IMG/VR virus record: IMGVR_UViG_3300031787_000039
Location: 1-64,000 of that record
Strand: one strand, 5' to 3'
Length of the DNA stretch: 64,000 nucleotides
Origin: a virus
Shown here: positions 4,354-48,190 of the stretch, in pieces
Numbering within the stretch: position 1 is the first letter of the stretch
Layout: the number at the start of each line of letters is the position of its first letter
Program-made: the position numbers and the translations under genes
The notes under the pieces: generated by a model
The model's input: the letters and a program-made list of their open reading frames with translations, nothing else
The model's database searches: none
What the model was told of the DNA's origin: nothing

Positions 4354-5121
4354 TCAGGTATCTGGATATTGTGCGTCATCGGCAGCATCAGTTGTAGTTA
4401 GAATTCCACCAGCAACTAATACTTCACTCTTAACTCTTAGATTTCCGTGAGTATCAATATAAGTCATGATTCCAACCCAACCACTGTGAGCAACAGCGTA
4501 TTTAGTAGTTGCGGCAACACCAACTTCAACACGATCTACACCGAATACATCTCTAAAATATCCATCAGTTTTTCTTCTGAAGGAAATTGTATCTCCAGTA
4601 TTAATACCGACAGAAATAGTAGATGCTAAACTTACTGTGGTTTCTCCAATTGTTGAAATAACAATATTATTTCCATTATTTACAATTGCATCACCAACAA
4701 TAACATCCTTAGTTCCAACAACAACAGGGATAATATTAGTTCCAACTCCAGCATTAGTTGTAGCAGTTCCAGTTACCCCAAGATTTTGGAACGTAGCAGC
4801 AGAATCATTTCTATTATTAAAGCTACTATCACCTAAAGTATAAATTGGTTGTTCGTTAACATTATATGCTACTGCAGGAATTGTAGTAATTCCAGAAATA
4901 AAGTTAGCAGTGCCTGCAATCGAAATCGTAGTTGAAGTAAATCCAGTGATAACTGCCTGACCGTAAGTTCCACCAGTTCCAACAGTTATTACATCACCTG
5001 TCTTAATTCCTGCGGTTGTAAAGGTTACAACGCCAGTAGTACCGGTTACGGTATTGGTTCCAAGGTTGACGGCAATAGTCCCGTCTGAGTAAACCGAATC
5101 TTTATTGCCCCAAAGAGCCAT
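4354..5121 (-). CDS. Virion structural protein (MALWGNKDS-type)
   Basis: The 255-residue product is rich in Thr, Gly, Val and Asn with short beta-strand patterns, as in phage tail or decoration proteins. The start MALWGNKDSVYSDGT is a recurrent N-terminus among cyanophage structural proteins. No enzymatic motif is visible. A perfect TATAAATA late promoter motif lies about 31 bases upstream of the ATG and directly follows a terminator, so the gene should be transcribed late as the head of its own unit. The exact location in the virion is not evident. Confidence 0.8.
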   Translation of the reverse strand: MALWGNKDSVYSDGTIAVNLGTNTVTGTTGVVTFTTAGIKTGDVITVGTGGTYGQAVITGFTSTTISIAGTANFISGITTIPAVAYNVNEQPIYTLGDSSFNNRNDSAATFQNLGVTGTATTNAGVGTNIIPVVVGTKDVIVGDAIVNNGNNIVISTIGETTVSLASTISVGINTGDTISFRRKTDGYFRDVFGVDRVEVGVAATTKYAVAHSGWVGIMTYIDTHGNLRVKSEVLVAGGILTTTDAADDAQYPDT

Positions 5122-5552: not shown

Positions 5553-6989
5553 TCAGACTCCTTTAAGATTGGATTTTGCTTTCAATTCTTTCATCATTGC
5601 ATCATACTTTTTTTGAGCCTCAGGAGAAAGTTCAAGGTTCTCAGTTTTTTTTGGTTCCCCCCTTTCACCCCTACCATATCTACTATCATAACCCTCAGAG
5701 TTCATTTTAGCACTTGAAGAAGTCATAATCTTCATGACTTCTTTTCCATCAGTTGGAGCATCGAGCATAATAGGATTCTTAATTCCCATTGCTCTAAACT
5801 TATTCTTAAGAAGTTCTCTGTAAGTTCTCTTCTCTTTACAATCACATGGATTTTCTCCACAACATTCACACGCTTTACTATTCTCTTCTTTTACATTTTC
5901 AGGAAGACCCTTATGCTTGGTTTTAGCATACTTCTTTGCTTCCTTTTTAGTCATACCCTTTGCTGCAGCCTCAACCTCAGGCGATGCCTCACCTTTCTTC
6001 ATCTCACCCTTTTTGCGTGCATAAACCATACCCATAAAGCGTTGCTGTGCTTTGCTCTTTGCCTTTTCAATAAGGAATGGTCCTTCCATCTCATTACCGG
6101 CACTAATAACTCCACCATTATTTTGTGGATTGGAACCATCATCTGGGAAGACTGTAATTCTCTTGGAATTATCAACCTTAACACCTACATCAATAGCGGC
6201 AGGAACTCTATTCTTACCATCGGTTGAAGTGGTTCCCTCAAACCAAAGATAATCTTCTTTGTTCATTGCTCTGCGGATTGCGTCACGACGATTATAGATG
6301 TAAGAATCCGTATTATCTTTCTTCCCATCATCATTTACATCACCATCTCTCTTGGAAGGATGTACTGGTTTGTCTAAACCACTCTTGTTATTTGGAATAT
6401 CTTTTTTCTTTTTCTTACGCTCACCTTCATATGGTTCACCATACTCAGTCATCTCAACTTTAAGACCCCTACCTCTCAAAGCAGTGATCTTTTCACGAGT
6501 AGCATATCTAACATAAGATTTACCGCTCTTAGGATCAGTAACTCTTATCTTATACTTTCTATCAGTTTCTTCAGCAAGTTGATTCTCATACTCAAGATTA
6601 ATAACTTCCTCTTTCTGCACTCCCTCAACAAATACTCTGTACAGAGCACCAGCAACTGAGTCTACTGCCCAGTCTACACTATCCACAAAATGTGACTCAG
6701 TAACACCAACCTTCTTTCCAAATAGTTTATCCTTAACTGCTTTCCTCTCAGCAGGGTTCAATGAACTATTAGACATGTACTGAGAGAAGGCTTGTTTAAG
6801 ATCGATGTCCTCTCTTCTGGCACGATAACGGATGTCATATACTGCCTGACGAATTCTTTTCTCAGAGTTTTCGGCAGTTGATCCGCCACCTTCTTTCTTC
6901 GCAGAAGGAGCAGCTTTCTTAGCACCATTAGCAGGAGCAGCAGGAGCGTGCTTTCTTGCTGGAAGTTCTTCAGAGATATTGGTTTTCAT
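5553..6989 (-). CDS. Conserved cyanophage protein with DUF3008-like segment, probably virion or head associated
   Basis: The 478-residue protein is highly charged and modular. It has an Ala/Pro/Lys linker at 10-40, a helical domain to about 150, a basic region with a KKKKK run near 195, and a DGDVNDDGKKD acidic loop that resembles a calcium-binding EF-like segment near 218. Residues about 310-375 (KAQQRFMGMVYARKKGE to KKYAKTKHKGLPE) match the small DUF3008 module of phage and bacterial proteins. A cysteine cluster CECCGENPCDC follows near 386, a possible metal site. Late promoter motifs about 30 bases upstream support late expression. The function is unknown; a head-internal or scaffold-associated role is inferred. 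Confidence 0.8.
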   Translation of the reverse strand: MKTNISEELPARKHAPAAPANGAKKAAPSAKKEGGGSTAENSEKRIRQAVYDIRYRARREDIDLKQAFSQYMSNSSLNPAERKAVKDKLFGKKVGVTESHFVDSVDWAVDSVAGALYRVFVEGVQKEEVINLEYENQLAEETDRKYKIRVTDPKSGKSYVRYATREKITALRGRGLKVEMTEYGEPYEGERKKKKKDIPNNKSGLDKPVHPSKRDGDVNDDGKKDNTDSYIYNRRDAIRRAMNKEDYLWFEGTTSTDGKNRVPAAIDVGVKVDNSKRITVFPDDGSNPQNNGGVISAGNEMEGPFLIEKAKSKAQQRFMGMVYARKKGEMKKGEASPEVEAAAKGMTKKEAKKYAKTKHKGLPENVKEENSKACECCGENPCDCKEKRTYRELLKNKFRAMGIKNPIMLDAPTDGKEVMKIMTSSSAKMNSEGYDSRYGRGERGEPKKTENLELSPEAQKKYDAMMKELKAKSNLKGV

Positions 6990-7006: not shown

Positions 7007-8248
7007 TTACTTTTTCCTATATTTATTTATGAATTGTAGACCCCAACTAGAACCGGGGACCATTGATTCAACATATCTGCGATGGGAATCAGTTCCAACT
7101 AGACGTTGATCGGCAGGAACTCCACCTTGTTCAGTTCCATTTACAACCGCCTCATTCACATCTTTGATCCAGGACTTGAACATAATATTGTCTTCGGTAA
7201 CACAAATAAGATAGTTAGTTCCACGACGAATAATACGTCCAACAAGTCCAGTGTTTAGATTTTCTACAAGTTCACCAATCTTGAAAATCGTCTTAGCAAC
7301 ATAGTTCTCACGTAAAGTCTGATAATCAAACTTTGGAGCCATCTCCCAGATTCCCCACTCTTCATTAATACCCATAGAGCGGCGAACTGTATTGAAAATT
7401 TCTTTTGCCTTTTCTGGTTTCATATCTCCAGGCATACCAGAGCGAAATGTCTTAAAGTCATTTTCTGCGGCAGCAAGTCTCATTCTTGAGGCAGAAAGAC
7501 CTTCCACACCTTCGGAGTCTGGATCTCTATCTCCAGCGGAAACAACTTCTAGTTTATCGAACTGATATAGTTTACCATTATAACTTCCAGAAAGTTTTTC
7601 AAATTCTTTAACTCTATCAGCACCACCAACTATTCTTACATTAGCATAACCGTCGTTATGTGCTTTCTTAAGAACATCGAAGATGGTTTTAGTTGCCGCA
7701 TCGTTAGCAATATTCTTTTTATGTTGTGGGAACATATCCATCATCACTTTTACTTTAGTATCAGCATCAAGTGGATTCTTCTTTGGATCTTGACTGCGTG
7801 ATGGAACAATAAGATAGTCCCCACCATCACTCTTAGCAGAACCAGCAGCAGTATCCATTAACTGCAAGTGACCAAGATGAGGTGGATTGAAACGACCAAA
7901 AGCAATGGTCAAAGTTCCTTTTGTTTTTTTAACAGGTTCAAACTTTGGACCATCATCCTTCTGCTCCCCACCCTTTTCTGCTTTTGGTTGGGGAGCTTCC
8001 TTCTGCTGCTGTAGTGCAGGATCTACAAAGTTTGGATTGGAATATTTCTTTTCAGTTTCAGTCTGTTCTGGATCTTTTCCGCCAACTTTTTGGCGCTTAT
8101 TATAAAAGACTAGTTTTCCTTTTTCAGTCTTTGCTACAAACTCACCACTGTTGCGATCATACCAACCACCGTGACCATCACCCTTAAGACCCATTCTTGC
8201 TGCTTGTTGTGCAGCAGATTCGGATAAGAACTGGAAGAAATTTTTCAT
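7007..8248 (-). CDS. Nucleotidyltransferase-like protein with predicted capsid-targeting N-terminus
   Basis: From the ATG at 8248 the 413-residue product begins MKNFFQFLSES, which matches the T4 internal-protein capsid-targeting peptide (MKTYQEFIAE-A) position by position. A Pro/Lys/Gln linker (about 70-110) leads to a nucleotidylyltransferase domain. Its substrate motif is GRFNPPHLGH (HxGH at 124-127) and its C-terminal signature GLSASRMR is at 250-257, as in the cytidylyl/NMN adenylyltransferase superfamily. A separate C-terminal domain (about 300-413) has short beta strands (GLVGRIIRRGTNYLICV). I chose the ATG over an upstream GTG because it gives a TGATG overlap with the previous gene and a clean targeting motif. 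The substrate is unknown. Confidence 0.85.
   Translation of the reverse strand: MKNFFQFLSESAAQQAARMGLKGDGHGGWYDRNSGEFVAKTEKGKLVFYNKRQKVGGKDPEQTETEKKYSNPNFVDPALQQQKEAPQPKAEKGGEQKDDGPKFEPVKKTKGTLTIAFGRFNPPHLGHLQLMDTAAGSAKSDGGDYLIVPSRSQDPKKNPLDADTKVKVMMDMFPQHKKNIANDAATKTIFDVLKKAHNDGYANVRIVGGADRVKEFEKLSGSYNGKLYQFDKLEVVSAGDRDPDSEGVEGLSASRMRLAAAENDFKTFRSGMPGDMKPEKAKEIFNTVRRSMGINEEWGIWEMAPKFDYQTLRENYVAKTIFKIGELVENLNTGLVGRIIRRGTNYLICVTEDNIMFKSWIKDVNEAVVNGTEQGGVPADQRLVGTDSHRRYVESMVPGSSWGLQFINKYRKK
7018..7030 (-). promoter_or_regulatory. T4-type late promoter (two overlapping ATAAATA copies)
   Basis: The minus strand contains overlapping ATAAATA motifs about 30-35 bases upstream of the ATG at 6989, inside the last codons of the upstream gene. 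Confidence 0.7.
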
Positions 8249-8460
8249 CACTTTTTATTTTGCAACTCCTTGGTTACCGCCACTTCGTTAGTAACGATAT
8301 ACCTTAAAATTTGTTTTCGTATCAATATATATTTATTCTTTTGTTTATTATTGGTAGCAGAGTCAATTTCACGCTGAAGTGTTGTATACACATATCCAGC
8401 AAAATTCTTAAAGTCTTTACTTCTAAAGTCGCTAATCAATTGTTTTAGATACTCAGACAT
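8248..8460 (-). CDS. Small conserved helical protein (70 aa)
   Basis: The frame from the ATG at 8460 reads MSEYLKQLISDFRSKDFKNF... and ends KELQNKK, an all-helical, Lys-rich protein. A longer open frame exists upstream, but it would overlap the preceding 309-aa gene almost entirely; the ATG at 8460 overlaps it by only 8 bases. Its stop forms a TGATG junction with the nucleotidyltransferase gene, so the two are probably translationally coupled. It could assist that enzyme, but no motif shows this. Confidence 0.7.
   Translation of the reverse strand: MSEYLKQLISDFRSKDFKNFAGYVYTTLQREIDSATNNKQKNKYILIRKQILRYIVTNEVAVTKELQNKK
8330..8336 (-). promoter_or_regulatory. Possible late promoter motif (ATAAATA)
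   Basis: ATAAATA lies on the minus strand about 82 bases upstream of the nucleotidyltransferase start, inside the 70-aa gene. The distance is longer than for the other late promoters here, so this is only a candidate. Confidence 0.4.
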
Positions 8461-9382
8461 ACTGCTTGATAGACCTACCACCCTTTGCGCTGATGACCAT
8501 TCTAGCACCTTTAACACCATAGTTGTCTCTATCTCCCTTATAAATCGCCATAAAAACTGGTTCATAATTTCCAGTGATAGCATCACCATTATTATGAGTT
8601 TGTGATGAAGCAATCAACTTATACTTTCCAGTGGTTACCATTTGTATATTTACAGTTCCCTGAAGGAGAAGGTCAACATTCTGTATACTCGAAGGACCGC
8701 CATATCCATTACCATATACAGACATCATTTTCAATCTTGTATCTTTAATCTGTCTAGCAACAGTTGTGGCTGGTGGAATACCATTAGGATACATTTCTCG
8801 TATTGTCGCAACAAATGCCTGAGTTTCTGGGTGAGAAGCAAGAACTGGTTCACCTCTTACAGTAATACCTCCCCACTGCTGAATAGCAGTTGCCGATAAT
8901 CCATCCTTATGTGATACAAAACCAACCATTCTACCCTGGTCATCTCTAAAATGAAAGTCTGACTTCGGTGTTCCTGGTGTGCTTTCTACAGCAACAACTC
9001 TATAATAGTTTTTGCCTATCTTTAAAGTAACAATATCACTACCATTTTTCTGCTTTATTTCCTCAAGTTTTCTTCTGATAAGTCTAACCTGCTCATCCTC
9101 TGCAGCAGTAGTATTTTGAGTTCTTCCAGAAAAAGTAGAGTCTTTATATAACTGGGTTAGTCTAATTAAACTGTTCGTTACTGTTGGTAAGACAATACTT
9201 TGACCCTGCTGATATTGTGCTAGATCATCTACACTGTTTAAAGTCTTAGCAACTCTTGGATCTATCTTTACTTTTAAACCATTTCCCTCAACAAGAGTAA
9301 AATCACCTCTACTAGCAATTCTAGTCTTAAAAAGAGAAAAGTTGTTTCTTTTTTTTAGTTCTGCAGGTGATAATGAAGCCAT
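8453..9382 (-). CDS. Conserved phage protein, possible PD-(D/E)XK-type nuclease fold
   Basis: The 309-residue product has a Lys/Arg-rich N-terminus, a helix rich in charge (about 93-113) and a beta-rich core. That core contains TPGTPKSDF (S141-D142) followed after 14 residues by FVSHKDG (S157-H158-K159) and then AIQQWGGI. The spacing and the P-K-x-D / x-H-K pattern recall PD-(D/E)XK nucleases in which the second acidic residue is replaced. This is inference, and a structural role is also possible. A CTAAATA late promoter motif lies 14 bases upstream of the ATG. A short-spaced AAGG is the only ribosome site. Confidence 0.75.
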   Translation of the reverse strand: MASLSPAELKKRNNFSLFKTRIASRGDFTLVEGNGLKVKIDPRVAKTLNSVDDLAQYQQGQSIVLPTVTNSLIRLTQLYKDSTFSGRTQNTTAAEDEQVRLIRRKLEEIKQKNGSDIVTLKIGKNYYRVVAVESTPGTPKSDFHFRDDQGRMVGFVSHKDGLSATAIQQWGGITVRGEPVLASHPETQAFVATIREMYPNGIPPATTVARQIKDTRLKMMSVYGNGYGGPSSIQNVDLLLQGTVNIQMVTTGKYKLIASSQTHNNGDAITGNYEPVFMAIYKGDRDNYGVKGARMVISAKGGRSIKQYV

Positions 9383-35589: not shown

Positions 35590-36966
35590 TCACATGAGAT
35601 TCTGAACCTTGACTCTTCTGTAGTAACGGTTGACGTTCTGGGTAAGAGCGCCAGCGCCAACGGTGGTTCCTTCCGCGAATGGGTTTGCGACCATGCCGTA
35701 GCGGGTCTTAAAGCCAATCTTGGGCTGGAAGGTGTCCTGACCAACGGCACGAACCATTTGGAGAGGAACGTATGGGCAGTAGAAGAGACCAGCGTCATAA
35801 GGTGAAGAACCCTTATAACCAGCAACGTAGTACTGATCAGCACCAAGGTTTGCCGAATATGGGTCAATGTAGACGCGGAACTTACCAGCAAGAATACCTG
35901 CGAAGGTGTTGCCGGTGTCGTCAACGTTGAGGTTAGCGTTGAGTGCAGGGGTGTAATCAAGTACACCAGCCATGGTGAGGGCGGAAGCAACGTCTGCGGA
36001 GCAGAGGATCATGTTGCCCTTTCCTCTACGAGTTCTCTGGGCGATAGCGTTAGCGTCACGCTCGATCTGGAAGATCAGACCCTTGAACTTCTCAACTGAC
36101 CAACGACCGTTGGAGTCAACGTCGAGGTCGAAAGCGCCTTGGGTAGCTACGTTAGTAGCAGCACCTTGCTCAGCAACTCTGTAGATGGTTCTGATGACTT
36201 CGCGGTTGATCTCAGCAAGAATCTCAGTTGAGAGAATGTTTGCGAGTTCAGCCTCAGCATTCAGACCATGAATTGCCTTGAGGTCCTGAGCGAGTTCTAA
36301 CGAGTACTCAGCTTTCAGAGCTCTTGACTTGGCGGTAACGGTGACCTTCTCGATCGAGAATGCCATTTCGTTGAACGCACCGATGCCGTCACCTAGGTTC
36401 TCAGCATCGTCGGTACGCAGACCCTGACCTACGCTGTAGGTGTCGCCAACAATACCTGAAGTTGGGTTAAGAGCAGCAGGGTTTGAACCAGCCTGACCGG
36501 TTGTACCCATACCAACAGCACCAGCGGTGAAACCAGCGGTACGGTTGAAGTTGCTGTCCTGACCAGAGAATGCGGAATCTGCCTCATTGAACAGAGCTTC
36601 AGCACCACCTTGGGTCTTATACTTGGAGCGCATTGCGAAGATGAGTCCAGTAGGACCACTCATTGGTTGAACGCCAGCGAGGTCATAAGCGACCAGGTTA
36701 GGCATTGAACGACGGATCAGGGAGATCAGAACTGGATCGAAACCAGCAACGGTCTGACCACCTGCTGAGGTGTAACCACCGTTACCAACAGCGTTGGTTG
36801 GTGATTCGTGAAGGAATTCGCGCTCTTCACGAAGAGCGATTTCTTGGTTCTCCAGGAGTTGAGCAGTAACGGCTCTACGATGGGAATCCTTGATAGGATC
36901 CATACCATCATAGTCCAGAAGGGGTGCCCACTTCTCCTGCAGATGCTCGTTTAGGGGCATTTGCAT
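35590..36966 (-). CDS. 23: Major capsid protein, T4 gp23-like
   Basis: This is the HK97-fold head protein. It has 458 residues (T4: 521). The N-terminus MQMPLNEHLQEKWAPLLDYD is the usual cyanophage form. A candidate gp21 cleavage site follows FLHE (E54/S55), fitting the (L/I)xE rule, so about 54 residues would be removed in maturation. The gene has an AGAGG ribosome site and a CTAAATA late promoter 42 bases upstream, and ends in a strong terminator. Codons and base composition are more GC-rich than neighbours, as expected for a highly expressed gene. Confidence 0.98.
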   Translation of the reverse strand: MQMPLNEHLQEKWAPLLDYDGMDPIKDSHRRAVTAQLLENQEIALREEREFLHESPTNAVGNGGYTSAGGQTVAGFDPVLISLIRRSMPNLVAYDLAGVQPMSGPTGLIFAMRSKYKTQGGAEALFNEADSAFSGQDSNFNRTAGFTAGAVGMGTTGQAGSNPAALNPTSGIVGDTYSVGQGLRTDDAENLGDGIGAFNEMAFSIEKVTVTAKSRALKAEYSLELAQDLKAIHGLNAEAELANILSTEILAEINREVIRTIYRVAEQGAATNVATQGAFDLDVDSNGRWSVEKFKGLIFQIERDANAIAQRTRRGKGNMILCSADVASALTMAGVLDYTPALNANLNVDDTGNTFAGILAGKFRVYIDPYSANLGADQYYVAGYKGSSPYDAGLFYCPYVPLQMVRAVGQDTFQPKIGFKTRYGMVANPFAEGTTVGAGALTQNVNRYYRRVKVQNLM

Positions 36967-37017: not shown

Positions 37018-38085
37018 TCACTTTTTAGCGACTCTTCTCAGAGTATCCATGTAGGATTCCATTAATGGTGATGCTGATACTTGACCAACAACACTGGTGC
37101 CTTCAGAGATAGTCTCTGAGTGGTCTCTTTGAGCGCCAGCGTGCTCTGGGAAGTAAGACTTCTTCAGAGTTACTAGCTTCTCACGATAGTCTGACTCACT
37201 TTCAAACTCAACATTTTCGGCAAGAGTAGCGAGCTTGTCTTTCTGAGAAAGGGCAAGTCCTTCAGCGACTTCTGCAAAGATTACATCAGCAACTGACTCG
37301 GCTAATCTCCTATTAAGAGCAACATTTCTTTCGATTTGCTCGTTGAGTTTAGACTCCATTTCATCTAGTTTATCTACCATGCTCTCGATTACATCATATC
37401 TATCTTCAGGGATGGTTACATAATGTTCTTCAAAAAGACCCTTCATTCCAGCGAGGAATGATTCGGTCATTTCAGTCTTAAGACCGTGCTCAACAGCGAG
37501 AGCGTTCTCTTGGATCCACTCATCGGCAACATACTCAAGGTATGCGTCGAGTCTTTCGGTCAGACCTTCTTTAATAGTTTCAATCTCTTCTACAAGAACA
37601 GTCTCGTATGCAGATTGAAGATTTTCCTTGATTTCGTTAACCTTTGATGTGATAGCAGCTTCGAAAATAGTGCGTGCCTTCTCTTGGAATTCCTCAGAAA
37701 GCTCTTCGCCTTCGAAGAGAGCTTGAACATCTTCTTCGATGTTGAACTCAGGTGCTTCCTCTTCGGTGACGACTTCCTCTGCAGAGATTTCTTCTTCAGA
37801 GATTTCCTCTTCAGTTACCTCTTCTTCTTCAGCAACAACTTCTTGCTCTTCATCAGCCTCAACTTCCTCGGCTCTAGCGGCTCTGGCGTTGACTACATTT
37901 TTGACTTGAGCAAGGGTCTTGCCTGGGGTCTCCAGTTTATTGGAGTCGTCGTCGGGTCTTGAGTTCTCGGGGGTAGGACCACCAAGATCCTCATAAGGAA
38001 CACCGCTAGCTTGCATTGGTTCAGCAGGTGCAGCGTTTTGTGTTACTACGTTTTCCATTTCCTGTAAGTTGCTATCAGCGGACAT
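37018..38085 (-). CDS. 22: Prohead core scaffolding protein, T4 gp22-like
   Basis: This is the main scaffold of the prohead core, later degraded by gp21. The 355-residue product (T4: 269) has a long Glu-rich tract (about 75-120) and then continuous helices typical of scaffold proteins (DVIESMVDKLDEMESKLNEQ). Position between 21 and 23 is as in T4. The acidic N-terminal extension is larger than in T4. A late promoter (TATAAATA) lies about 35-40 bases upstream. Confidence 0.93.
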   Translation of the reverse strand: MSADSNLQEMENVVTQNAAPAEPMQASGVPYEDLGGPTPENSRPDDDSNKLETPGKTLAQVKNVVNARAARAEEVEADEEQEVVAEEEEVTEEEISEEEISAEEVVTEEEAPEFNIEEDVQALFEGEELSEEFQEKARTIFEAAITSKVNEIKENLQSAYETVLVEEIETIKEGLTERLDAYLEYVADEWIQENALAVEHGLKTEMTESFLAGMKGLFEEHYVTIPEDRYDVIESMVDKLDEMESKLNEQIERNVALNRRLAESVADVIFAEVAEGLALSQKDKLATLAENVEFESESDYREKLVTLKKSYFPEHAGAQRDHSETISEGTSVVGQVSASPLMESYMDTLRRVAKK

Positions 38086-38128: not shown

Positions 38129-38779
38129 TCAGAGATTTGATAAGAATTCGTTGAAAAGATTTAACTTATACTCTTCAAGCATTCTTTGATCGACAAGAGT
38201 ATTAATACGTCTTTTTGTATTCTCTGCGAGTTGTTCACGAAGGATACCACCTTCCCAAACCCACTCTTTACCTTCCATAATTCCATTGACGAAAGCATCA
38301 GGAGCGGAAGGATCGGCAACGATATCAGCAGCAGTTGCTAACTGGAAATCTTCACCAACAATCTTGTGACCTTCGTTGGTCATTCTAAGTGAACCAACAC
38401 CACGAGAAGAAACGCCAAGCATAACGCCAGACTCAAGAAGTGACTTAGCGATTTTGCCCATTGGGGTTTCAAGAATCTGTGCCTTACCTACAAAGTTATT
38501 ACCTTCTTGGTTGAGGCAAGTGATCTTGTGTGAAACACGATCAAGATTAACGGTAGGACCATCTGGGTGACCAAGTTCGCCAAGAGCACGACCCTTACAG
38601 ACGAAATTTTCGTTATAACGGGTTACTTCTTTAGAAAGAGTATCGATGGGGTACATTCTCCCATTGCGATTCTTGATCTCACCTTGAAGAAATACACCTT
38701 CGATGTATAACCTCTTGTTAGGACCTTTACCTTCGGTGATAACTTTTACGTTAGTTACTTCTTCTGTGATTAGTTTCAT
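38129..38779 (-). CDS. 21: Prohead core protease, T4 gp21-like
   Basis: This is the maturation protease that cleaves head proteins after (L/I)xE sites. The product has 216 residues (T4: 212). The herpes-assemblin-like catalytic His71 is in GELGHPDGP, and the nucleophile Ser lies in MLGVSSRGVGS (Ser124/125). The gene order 20-67-x-21-22-23 matches T4. It follows the 89-aa structural gene by four bases. Confidence 0.95.
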   Translation of the reverse strand: MKLITEEVTNVKVITEGKGPNKRLYIEGVFLQGEIKNRNGRMYPIDTLSKEVTRYNENFVCKGRALGELGHPDGPTVNLDRVSHKITCLNQEGNNFVGKAQILETPMGKIAKSLLESGVMLGVSSRGVGSLRMTNEGHKIVGEDFQLATAADIVADPSAPDAFVNGIMEGKEWVWEGGILREQLAENTKRRINTLVDQRMLEEYKLNLFNEFLSNL

Positions 38780-46292: not shown

Positions 46293-47876
46293 TTAATCTT
46301 CTACATAAATGAACGAAGCACTAGCAGCAGTAATATTAGATGTTGATGAAATTACTGCGGTTATAAAACTATTTGGTGGAACATGAAGTCCAATTTCAGA
46401 TAAATCAACATCAATGGTTGAGTTATCTGATACATGAAAAGCAGCAATAGGAGGTATTGATTGTGCTGCTAATGTAAATAATCCAGTGCTATCTTGAGTT
46501 GCATAAAGTGATGCATTAAAATCACTTTGAGTAGTCCATCTCAAATAATTTGTAAGAACTGGGTTCCAATATATGCGAATAACTGCTGGGTCTCCTGTTG
46601 TATTTACTGATGCAGTAAGTCTTCTAGGAAGTAAATCTCTTGTATTAATCTTACCTTGATAAACAAGTTTATTTTTAAGAGAAATGAGATGATATAAAGA
46701 ACCAGGAGTGTTCATACTATCATTTCTGGTTGTAGTCACTGAATATGGAAGTTTTGTTCTTTCAACAATACCTTCAATCGCACCAAGGAAAGAAGAACCT
46801 CTACAAGTAACAACACCTACACCACCACCTAGATTTGCAGCAACATATCCAATCTTCATTGATGGATTGTCTAGGTGTGGTAGTTGGTTTCTATTTGAAT
46901 AATGTTCGTGATGGAAGAAAATCATATCCCCATTTAGAGGATTTTCAATCGCATATCTAATCTCACCAGAACCTAACCAACGGAAGTTGATTTGATATAC
47001 ATTTAACTTAGATGGGTCTAGAGTAATACCAGAATATCCAGTTCCATCAAGTTTATCTAAATTAAAATCTTCTTGGAAAGTCCAGTTTTCTGTTTGTACT
47101 ACCCCTGCCTGTCTTAATAATGCATTAAAAGATATTGTTGCGGTGCTTGTAATATCAAAAGTTCCAGTTTGAGGTCCAAGAGATGTTGCTAAAAATCTTA
47201 ATCTTGATTGGTCATATTCAACCAAATACAAAGCATTAAAGAGTGCTTGTGCTCTTAATCCTTGTGCGAGTTGAGAAAGATTTCCTGCAAGTGTTCCTGA
47301 ATTTACTGTTACCGCAGTAAAAGAAGTTCCATTCAGAGTGACTGTTACATTTCCATTATCAAGTGTGGTGAAGTCATAACCCTGAATTCTTGCTTTACCA
47401 CCATTTGCACGAAGAACACCAAACTTCCCATTGGTGTGTGCATATCCAATTTGAATTGCTTGTTCTTGATTGAATAGTCCTGCTCTTTGTGTAAATCCTA
47501 CTGGGTTATTTGAGAACGAACCAGTAAATCTGCAAACAACACCTTGTCCTGGACGGTATCTAATAAAGTTCGTACTTCTGATTACACCATAAGAATTTGC
47601 AGAAGAACCAGCACCAACTATAAATGTAGAGTTTGCATGAGTAGCAATTCCTGTTGCACTGAATGTATATGTCTCAAACTCTCTTGGGTCTAATCCATAG
47701 ACAGCATCTGCCTGAATTTTTGGTGTAATTGGGACTGCAATATTCTCACCAAAAGCAGATTTAGAACAAGCACCTTCATTTAGAATATTTCCATACTCAT
47801 CAGCACGGAGATAAACTTCGTGAAGTGTTCTTTCTTGATTTAAGTAGTCTTGTGTAGACTTATTCCACTGAGCCAT
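46293..47876 (-). CDS. Virion structural protein (527 aa)
   Basis: The product begins MAQWNKSTQDYLNQERTLHE and is rich in Asn, Thr, Gly and Leu with beta-strand patterns (GVVCRFTGSFSNNPVGFTQR, YHLISLKNKLVYQGKINTRD). There are no enzyme motifs. Proteins with this start occur in several T4-like cyanophages and are annotated as structural. It is linked by TAATG-type adjacency to the 104-aa head-targeted gene upstream. A tail fibre or head-decoration role is possible. Confidence 0.78.
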   Translation of the reverse strand: MAQWNKSTQDYLNQERTLHEVYLRADEYGNILNEGACSKSAFGENIAVPITPKIQADAVYGLDPREFETYTFSATGIATHANSTFIVGAGSSANSYGVIRSTNFIRYRPGQGVVCRFTGSFSNNPVGFTQRAGLFNQEQAIQIGYAHTNGKFGVLRANGGKARIQGYDFTTLDNGNVTVTLNGTSFTAVTVNSGTLAGNLSQLAQGLRAQALFNALYLVEYDQSRLRFLATSLGPQTGTFDITSTATISFNALLRQAGVVQTENWTFQEDFNLDKLDGTGYSGITLDPSKLNVYQINFRWLGSGEIRYAIENPLNGDMIFFHHEHYSNRNQLPHLDNPSMKIGYVAANLGGGVGVVTCRGSSFLGAIEGIVERTKLPYSVTTTRNDSMNTPGSLYHLISLKNKLVYQGKINTRDLLPRRLTASVNTTGDPAVIRIYWNPVLTNYLRWTTQSDFNASLYATQDSTGLFTLAAQSIPPIAAFHVSDNSTIDVDLSEIGLHVPPNSFITAVISSTSNITAASASFIYVED

Positions 47877-48190
47877 TATTCACTCCACGATAATCTTTCT
47901 GGTTGATACCTCTGAGAACTCTTAATTTTTAAAGAACTTTGAGATTGTGATGGATAGATATTGTGAACAATCGCACCAGGATATTCTCCTTGAAGTTGTT
48001 CAGCGAGAGCGTTCTTATCCATCATAGAACCTTCAACCTCAAGACGATACATCTTTCCTTCCCAAACTACATCAGCAAAGAAAGACTCACTTGCGGTCTC
48101 TGGTTCTTGTGAACCACCTACATTTAAAGTTCCATTAAAATCACCATTGATGGTGATGCTTTCTTGTAAAAACTGTTGAAAACTTTTCAT
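47876..48190 (-). CDS. Small protein with predicted capsid-targeting N-terminus (104 aa)
   Basis: From the ATG at 48190 it begins MKSFQQFLQES, matching the T4 internal-protein targeting peptide MKTYQEFIAE-A, with a gp21-type cut expected after Glu10. The rest has a beta-rich domain (ADVVWEGKMYRLEVEGSM) and a Ser-rich tail. It lies directly upstream of a virion protein and downstream of a large virion-like protein. I chose this ATG over one two codons earlier because it gives a TAATG overlap. It is predicted to be packed in the head and possibly injected. The function of the mature part is unknown. Confidence 0.72.
   Translation of the reverse strand: MKSFQQFLQESITINGDFNGTLNVGGSQEPETASESFFADVVWEGKMYRLEVEGSMMDKNALAEQLQGEYPGAIVHNIYPSQSQSSLKIKSSQRYQPERLSWSE

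Follow-up and report, generated by a model that had tools for sequence, protein, structure and literature searches.

A probable T4-type capsid-targeting peptide on a cyanophage nucleotidyltransferase and on other phage proteins

Results

The gene and its protein

Within the window, by which we mean the whole 64,000-nucleotide stretch of viral DNA analyzed here, an ORF with its ATG at 8248 and a stop ending at 7007 encodes a nucleotidyltransferase (NTase) with five parts in order: a peptide of the type found on the T4 internal proteins IPII and IPIII, a 40-residue GHG module, a disordered linker, the nucleotidyltransferase domain and an SH3/KOW-like C-terminus. An earlier note on this DNA had the ORF, its strand and its residue numbers right (HLGH at 124-127, GLSASRMR at 250-257, SAAQQAARMG after Glu10). 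In the lines below, a slash within a sequence marks a cut.

7007..8248 (-): NTase gene, head-targeted in our reading; 413 aa; P-SSM2 gp194 / T4-GC190 family
8219..8248 (-): T4-type capsid-targeting peptide MKNFFQFLSE, residues 1-10, called from its conserved positions and T4 IPIII (MKTYQEFIAE)
between 8219 and 8218 (-): predicted gp21 cut after Glu10, MKNFFQFLSE/S
8090..8215 (-): small beta module, residues 12-53, GDGHGGWYD..GEFVAKT..GKLVFYN, common to other tagged proteins
7925..8089 (-): disordered linker (AlphaFold2, AF2), with no further (L/I)xE between residue 11 and the enzyme
7376..7921 (-): HIGH-superfamily nucleotidyltransferase domain, residues 110-291 (Pfam PF01467, 7.3e-9; AF2; Foldseek), with motifs GRFNPPHLGH 118-127, SRSQDPKKNPL 150-160, GGADR 208-212 and GLSASRMR 250-257
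7148..7276 (-): SH3/KOW-like C-terminal domain, residues 325-367 (AF2 and fold search)

Among named relatives, P-SSM2 gp194 is the closest (65% identity), and the S-SCSM1 virion protein gp91 is 50% identical; the family has 560 matching phage records, of which 380 cover at least 80% of the query, and in cyanophages it is annotated as cyti(ti)dyltransferase. The AF2 model (50 homologues) has a helix over tag residues 2-9, a small beta module at about 13-48, the disordered linker that the earlier note had placed ahead of the enzyme, a Rossmann-like fold over 110-290 and an SH3/KOW-like domain over 327-366. The linkers pull its mean pLDDT down to 70; the nucleotidyltransferase domain lies mostly at 73-92, averaging about 86. 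The C-terminal domain weakly matches the SPT5 KOW region (E 7e-3, prob 1.0), and in P-HM2 this part is a separate gene. Kinases and very large proteins encoded at the same position in the genome also have the GHG module, again preceded by a leader peptide. S-CREM2 gp12 (L007:7704-10313, minus strand), a virion protein annotated "Cas9," carries a leader and the GHG module without any Pfam match, and its label looks doubtful.

The enzyme domain and its acceptor

That the nucleotidyltransferase domain is real, as the earlier note had proposed, we do not doubt: it has the (H/T)xGH and SxSxxR motifs and the Rossmann-like fold that define the HIGH superfamily (PF01467), its catalytic motifs are conserved, and its confidently predicted fold finds as best solved matches PPAT (5ts2, 2.9e-5), NadD and FAD synthetase. 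The nearest BFVD models come from further phage proteins of this kind.

What, then, is the acceptor? The published label, a plain NMN adenylyltransferase (NMNAT), we reject, the curated models being missed by a wide margin (TIGR00482, 20.8 of 112 bits; TIGR01526, 19 of 341, both short of the equivalog cut-offs for NMN/NaMN adenylyltransferases), and the acceptor is therefore open; that PPAT is the best fold match likewise leaves it undetermined. The protein could be a genuine NMN/NaMN adenylyltransferase that lifts NAD levels once inside the host, say to counter NAD-depleting defenses, but we find this doubtful. The GxD and SxSxxR motifs and the fold do resemble those of NadD/NMNAT, and a role in NAD has already been suggested in print for S-SCSM1 (PMC9602691), but the missed cut-offs and the PPAT match speak against it, and no systematic search was made for a NadV-type partner. 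NMN/NaMN remains our best single guess at the acceptor, and a tentative one, the substrate being inferred.

The N-terminal peptide

The earlier note had aligned this N-terminus residue for residue with the T4 internal proteins, and the match is real, since the T4 record gives MKTYQEFIAEA as the start of both ipII and ipIII. The peptide has the features of the T4 type, namely aromatics at 4 and 7, L or I at 8 and E at 10. Across 50 NTase homologues, residues 1, 2, 4, 7 and 10 (M1, K2, F4, F7, E10) are invariant and residue 8 is L in 45, with 3, 5, 6 and 9 variable. In T4, the mutant data make residues 4 and 7 the targeting positions and 8 and 10 the processing positions, with gp21 cutting after L/I-x-E (reviewed in PMC9026906); the conserved positions are the same ones. 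This homologue sample is biased, the tag itself having been one of the six scan patterns, and the homologues in A1 are 67-93% identical, so the invariance there is inflated, which counts against reading it as a packaging signal. The tag is also present on the NTases of S-SM1, Syn33, S-SCSM1, P-SSM2, ACG-2014f and S-CREM2, all found by other means.

Could such a short match be chance? The strict pattern, M-x2-[FY]-x2-F-[LI]-x-E, found 15 nonredundant N-termini over 1.49 Mb of loci, against 0-2 matches for 22 of 23 permuted patterns on the same loci; the 23rd merely exchanges [FY] and F and so largely finds the tag again. The match exceeds chance. In the 54 kb of T4 scanned, the pattern picks out exactly ipII and ipIII, and IPI (MKTFKEFTST) fails it. 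The relatives in P-HM2 and RaK2 lack the tag, so the enzyme also works untagged, a further point against the packaging reading.

The head genes and the predicted cut

The phage encodes a gp21 protease and a gp22 core protein, as expected of one with T4-type internal proteins, with gp23 (PF07068) also in the window.

38129..38779 (-): gp21 prohead protease (Pfam PF03420, 1.1e-37), the predicted processing enzyme
37018..38085 (-): gp22 scaffold, T4_CASP (Pfam PF25623, 2.1e-80), likely binding partner in the prohead core, a role inferred from T4
36805..36816 (-): predicted gp21 cut site FLHE/S in gp23, residues 51-54, aligned with T4 FLTE/A (E65)

Cleavage of gp23 is established in T4. The aligned sites read FLTE/A in T4, FLAE/A in S-SCSM1, LLTE/A in S-CREM2 and FLHE/S here. 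Shuffled sequences have 0.46 additional L/I-x-E sites each in the stretch from residue 11 to the enzyme, and the 80 homologues have none; because the sequences are related, this is no more than supportive. Cleavage of the NTase after Glu10 is likely but inferred from the match to the gp23 site; we had no peptide data showing the new N-terminus, which also counts against packaging.

Neighbors and late promoters

8453..9382 (-): upstream neighbor with weak type II restriction-enzyme similarity (PADLOC REase_II, 1.1e-5)
8330..8336 (-): late-promoter-like ATAAATA of the NTase gene, 88 nt upstream
5553..6989 (-): downstream neighbor with a DUF3008 segment, parts matching S-SCSM1 virion proteins gp92 and gp93; ATAAATA 37 and 41 nt upstream
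4354..5121 (-): homologue of S-SCSM1 virion protein gp95; ATAAATA 37 nt upstream
47876..48190 (-): second strict-tag ORF, MKSFQQFLQES, 104 aa, among structural genes; 47% identical to S-SCSM1 gp30

S-SCSM1 gp90 (L094:2640-3974), a virion protein in the same place as 8453-9382, looks nuclease-like by eye. Of 58 genes, 10 have ATAAATA at 25-42 nt upstream of the start, against 0.7 expected; they include gp22, gp18 and both of the genes listed above that lie downstream of the NTase; the site of the NTase gene itself lies beyond that usual distance, which weighs against packaging. The count in the window (20, all on the coding strand, against 16 expected) we rejected as evidence in itself.

Virion proteomes of relatives

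An orthologue (T4-GC190) was detected in purified S-SM1 virions in 2010 (PMC3037559), S-SCSM1 gp91 in 2022, with delivery and a NAD role suggested (PMC9602691), and S-CREM2 gp154 in 2023 (PMC10665884). Virion presence is thus published for three orthologues and not for the phage of the window, and all three carry the same peptide (S-SM1 MKKFSAFLNEA; S-SCSM1 MKSFLQFLKEA; S-CREM2 MKNFSSFLTEA).

For the complete S-CREM2 genome, the 219 CDS could be set against Table 3 of PMC10665884. The strict pattern picks out exactly three CDS, each of them a virion protein (Fisher 0.013, or 0.0027 once structural proteins are excluded): the SAM lyase gp6 (MKDFDSFLEE), the kinase gp14 (MKRFDAFLTE) and the NTase gp154 (MKNFSSFLTE). 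A looser pattern gives nine matches, six of them in the virion (p 0.0065). Gp6 (L007:3837-5081, minus strand; PF23780, 2.3e-19) is itself a candidate for a head-borne antirestriction enzyme. A six-frame search of the S-SCSM1 genome gives no strict match besides the NTase, and the record labels six proteins around it, between mazG and gp61, as virion proteins (gp89, gp90, gp92, gp93, gp95 and gp97). The S-SM1 test was limited to its NTase and a 25-kb stretch. Two observations pull the other way: the S-CREM2 authors caution that abundant proteins may carry over in CsCl preparations (PMC10665884), and S-SCSM1 gp30, with the near-tag MKTFKQFMSES, is absent from the virion list.

The tag on other proteins

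A frame-blind DNA scan of viral contigs with MKxFxxF[LI..]xE[AST] gave at least 122 matches; among the matches listed, 117 lie in open ORFs of at least 60 aa, and in 115 of 122 the most upstream ATG is the tag position. The control, with F7 and E10 exchanged, gave 42 in all, 8 in ORFs of at least 60 aa and 3 at starts. The earlier note had raised the possibility of the same N-terminus fused to other domains, and it does occur, on 46 protein clusters among the matches listed, the NTase being the largest (n = 50). Pfam finds GNAT, SET, DPBB and DUF6267 on the tagged proteins listed, with weak HAD and M78-like matches. T4-type core genes lie near 36 of the 62 non-NTase tagged loci listed, against 9 of 42 controls.

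A few of these proteins are worth describing for themselves. Four are tagged, low-complexity proteins of 440-750 aa with alanine/glycine-zipper-like segments (L011:11109-13349, L021:10653-12752, L027:9844-11259, L071:18257-19582); the two longest run past the contig end, and those of L011 and L021 have an extra MKT[YF]..F motif deep inside (MKTYAQFMEQA, MKTFEEFVLET). A DUF6267 protein (L182:947-2098, minus strand) has the tag, and an untagged DUF6267 gene (L265:12296-13270; motif KWDGAP, ligase-like by eye) adjoins the S-SM1 NTase. A tagged 216-aa protein (L158:1211-1858, minus strand) starts like an ADP-ribosyltransferase by eye and has no Pfam match.

Discussion

In our judgment, the best explanation of all this, and one we hold with considerable confidence, is that a T4-like cyanophage carries the NTase in its head, the enzyme being targeted by its tag, cut and ejected, with the core binding, cleavage, ejection and substrate inferred. 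Late in infection, the peptide would bind within the prohead core, gp22 being the probable partner, and the enzyme would be built into the prohead; gp21 would cut it after Glu10 as the head matures, and DNA would be packed around the freed protein. At the next infection, it would enter the host together with the DNA and, before phage gene expression, may transfer an adenylyl (NMP) group to a small phosphorylated acceptor. There is good support for packaging by way of a T4-type targeting peptide, and the earlier note's head-targeting call now rests on virion proteomes, the gp23 site, the pattern of conservation and an unbiased DNA scan with its control. Injection is the natural inference and is unshown.

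The tagged NTase might instead be a component of head assembly, packaged and cleaved but at work in the prohead, with no effector delivered. It is a core gene in the 16 cyanophage genomes compared (PMC3037559). Gp21 also cuts core proteins in T4, but the NTase's catalytic motifs are conserved and the other tagged cargo (SAM lyase, kinase-like, GNAT and SET proteins) makes sense inside a host cell, and we consider the idea improbable. Least credible is an ordinary auxiliary NMN adenylyltransferase made during infection, contaminating virions and bearing its peptide incidentally, which can appeal to the published annotation, the carry-over caveat and the untagged relatives in jumbo phages but must face the coincidence of tagged with virion proteins in S-CREM2, the tag at ORF starts on 46 unrelated clusters among the matches listed, and the six NTase neighbors labeled virion proteins in S-SCSM1.

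The packaged and ejected enzyme that we favor has its nearest precedent in T4 IPII and IPIII, with the same 10-residue N-terminal peptide, key residues and L/I-x-E site in a phage with gp21, gp22 and gp23; here, in contrast, the cargo is a multidomain enzyme with a GHG module, the host is cyanobacterial and cleavage is not yet shown. The earlier note had invoked T4 Alt, which is likewise a head-borne enzyme delivered to the host. Its chemistry (ADP-ribosyl transfer) is unrelated, however, and it begins with another propeptide, MELITELFDE, so that the comparison is loose and we rejected Alt as a model for the leader. Polyvalent and MuF-type proteins are also enzymes packed in the head and injected, but they are marked by other domains, whereas the mark here is a short peptide.

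Is this a new kind of early effector, as the earlier note supposed? Only in part, since the cyanophage "cyti(ti)dyltransferase," T4-GC190 and "NMNAT" virion proteins are direct orthologues whose virion presence was published in 2010, 2022 and 2023, with delivery suggested. The virion status of the family is known, and the tag evidence is new: in the open-licence literature searched, we found neither a link from these orthologues to a targeting peptide or gp21 nor the family's peptide and its wide use.

The set of proteins injected by abundant ocean phages has been unsettled, since mass spectrometry of virions does not distinguish cargo from carried-over protein. A short sequence rule in agreement with the virion lists allows injected proteins to be predicted directly; it explains the recurrent presence in virions of a "metabolic" enzyme and points to kinase, SAM lyase, GNAT, SET and HAD proteins as head-borne candidates. 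We think it likely that marine T4-like phages share a general ten-residue code, MKxFxxF[LI]xE, that loads dozens of unrelated enzymes, with the NTase the commonest cargo, and that genome sequence alone predicts most of their injected effectors.
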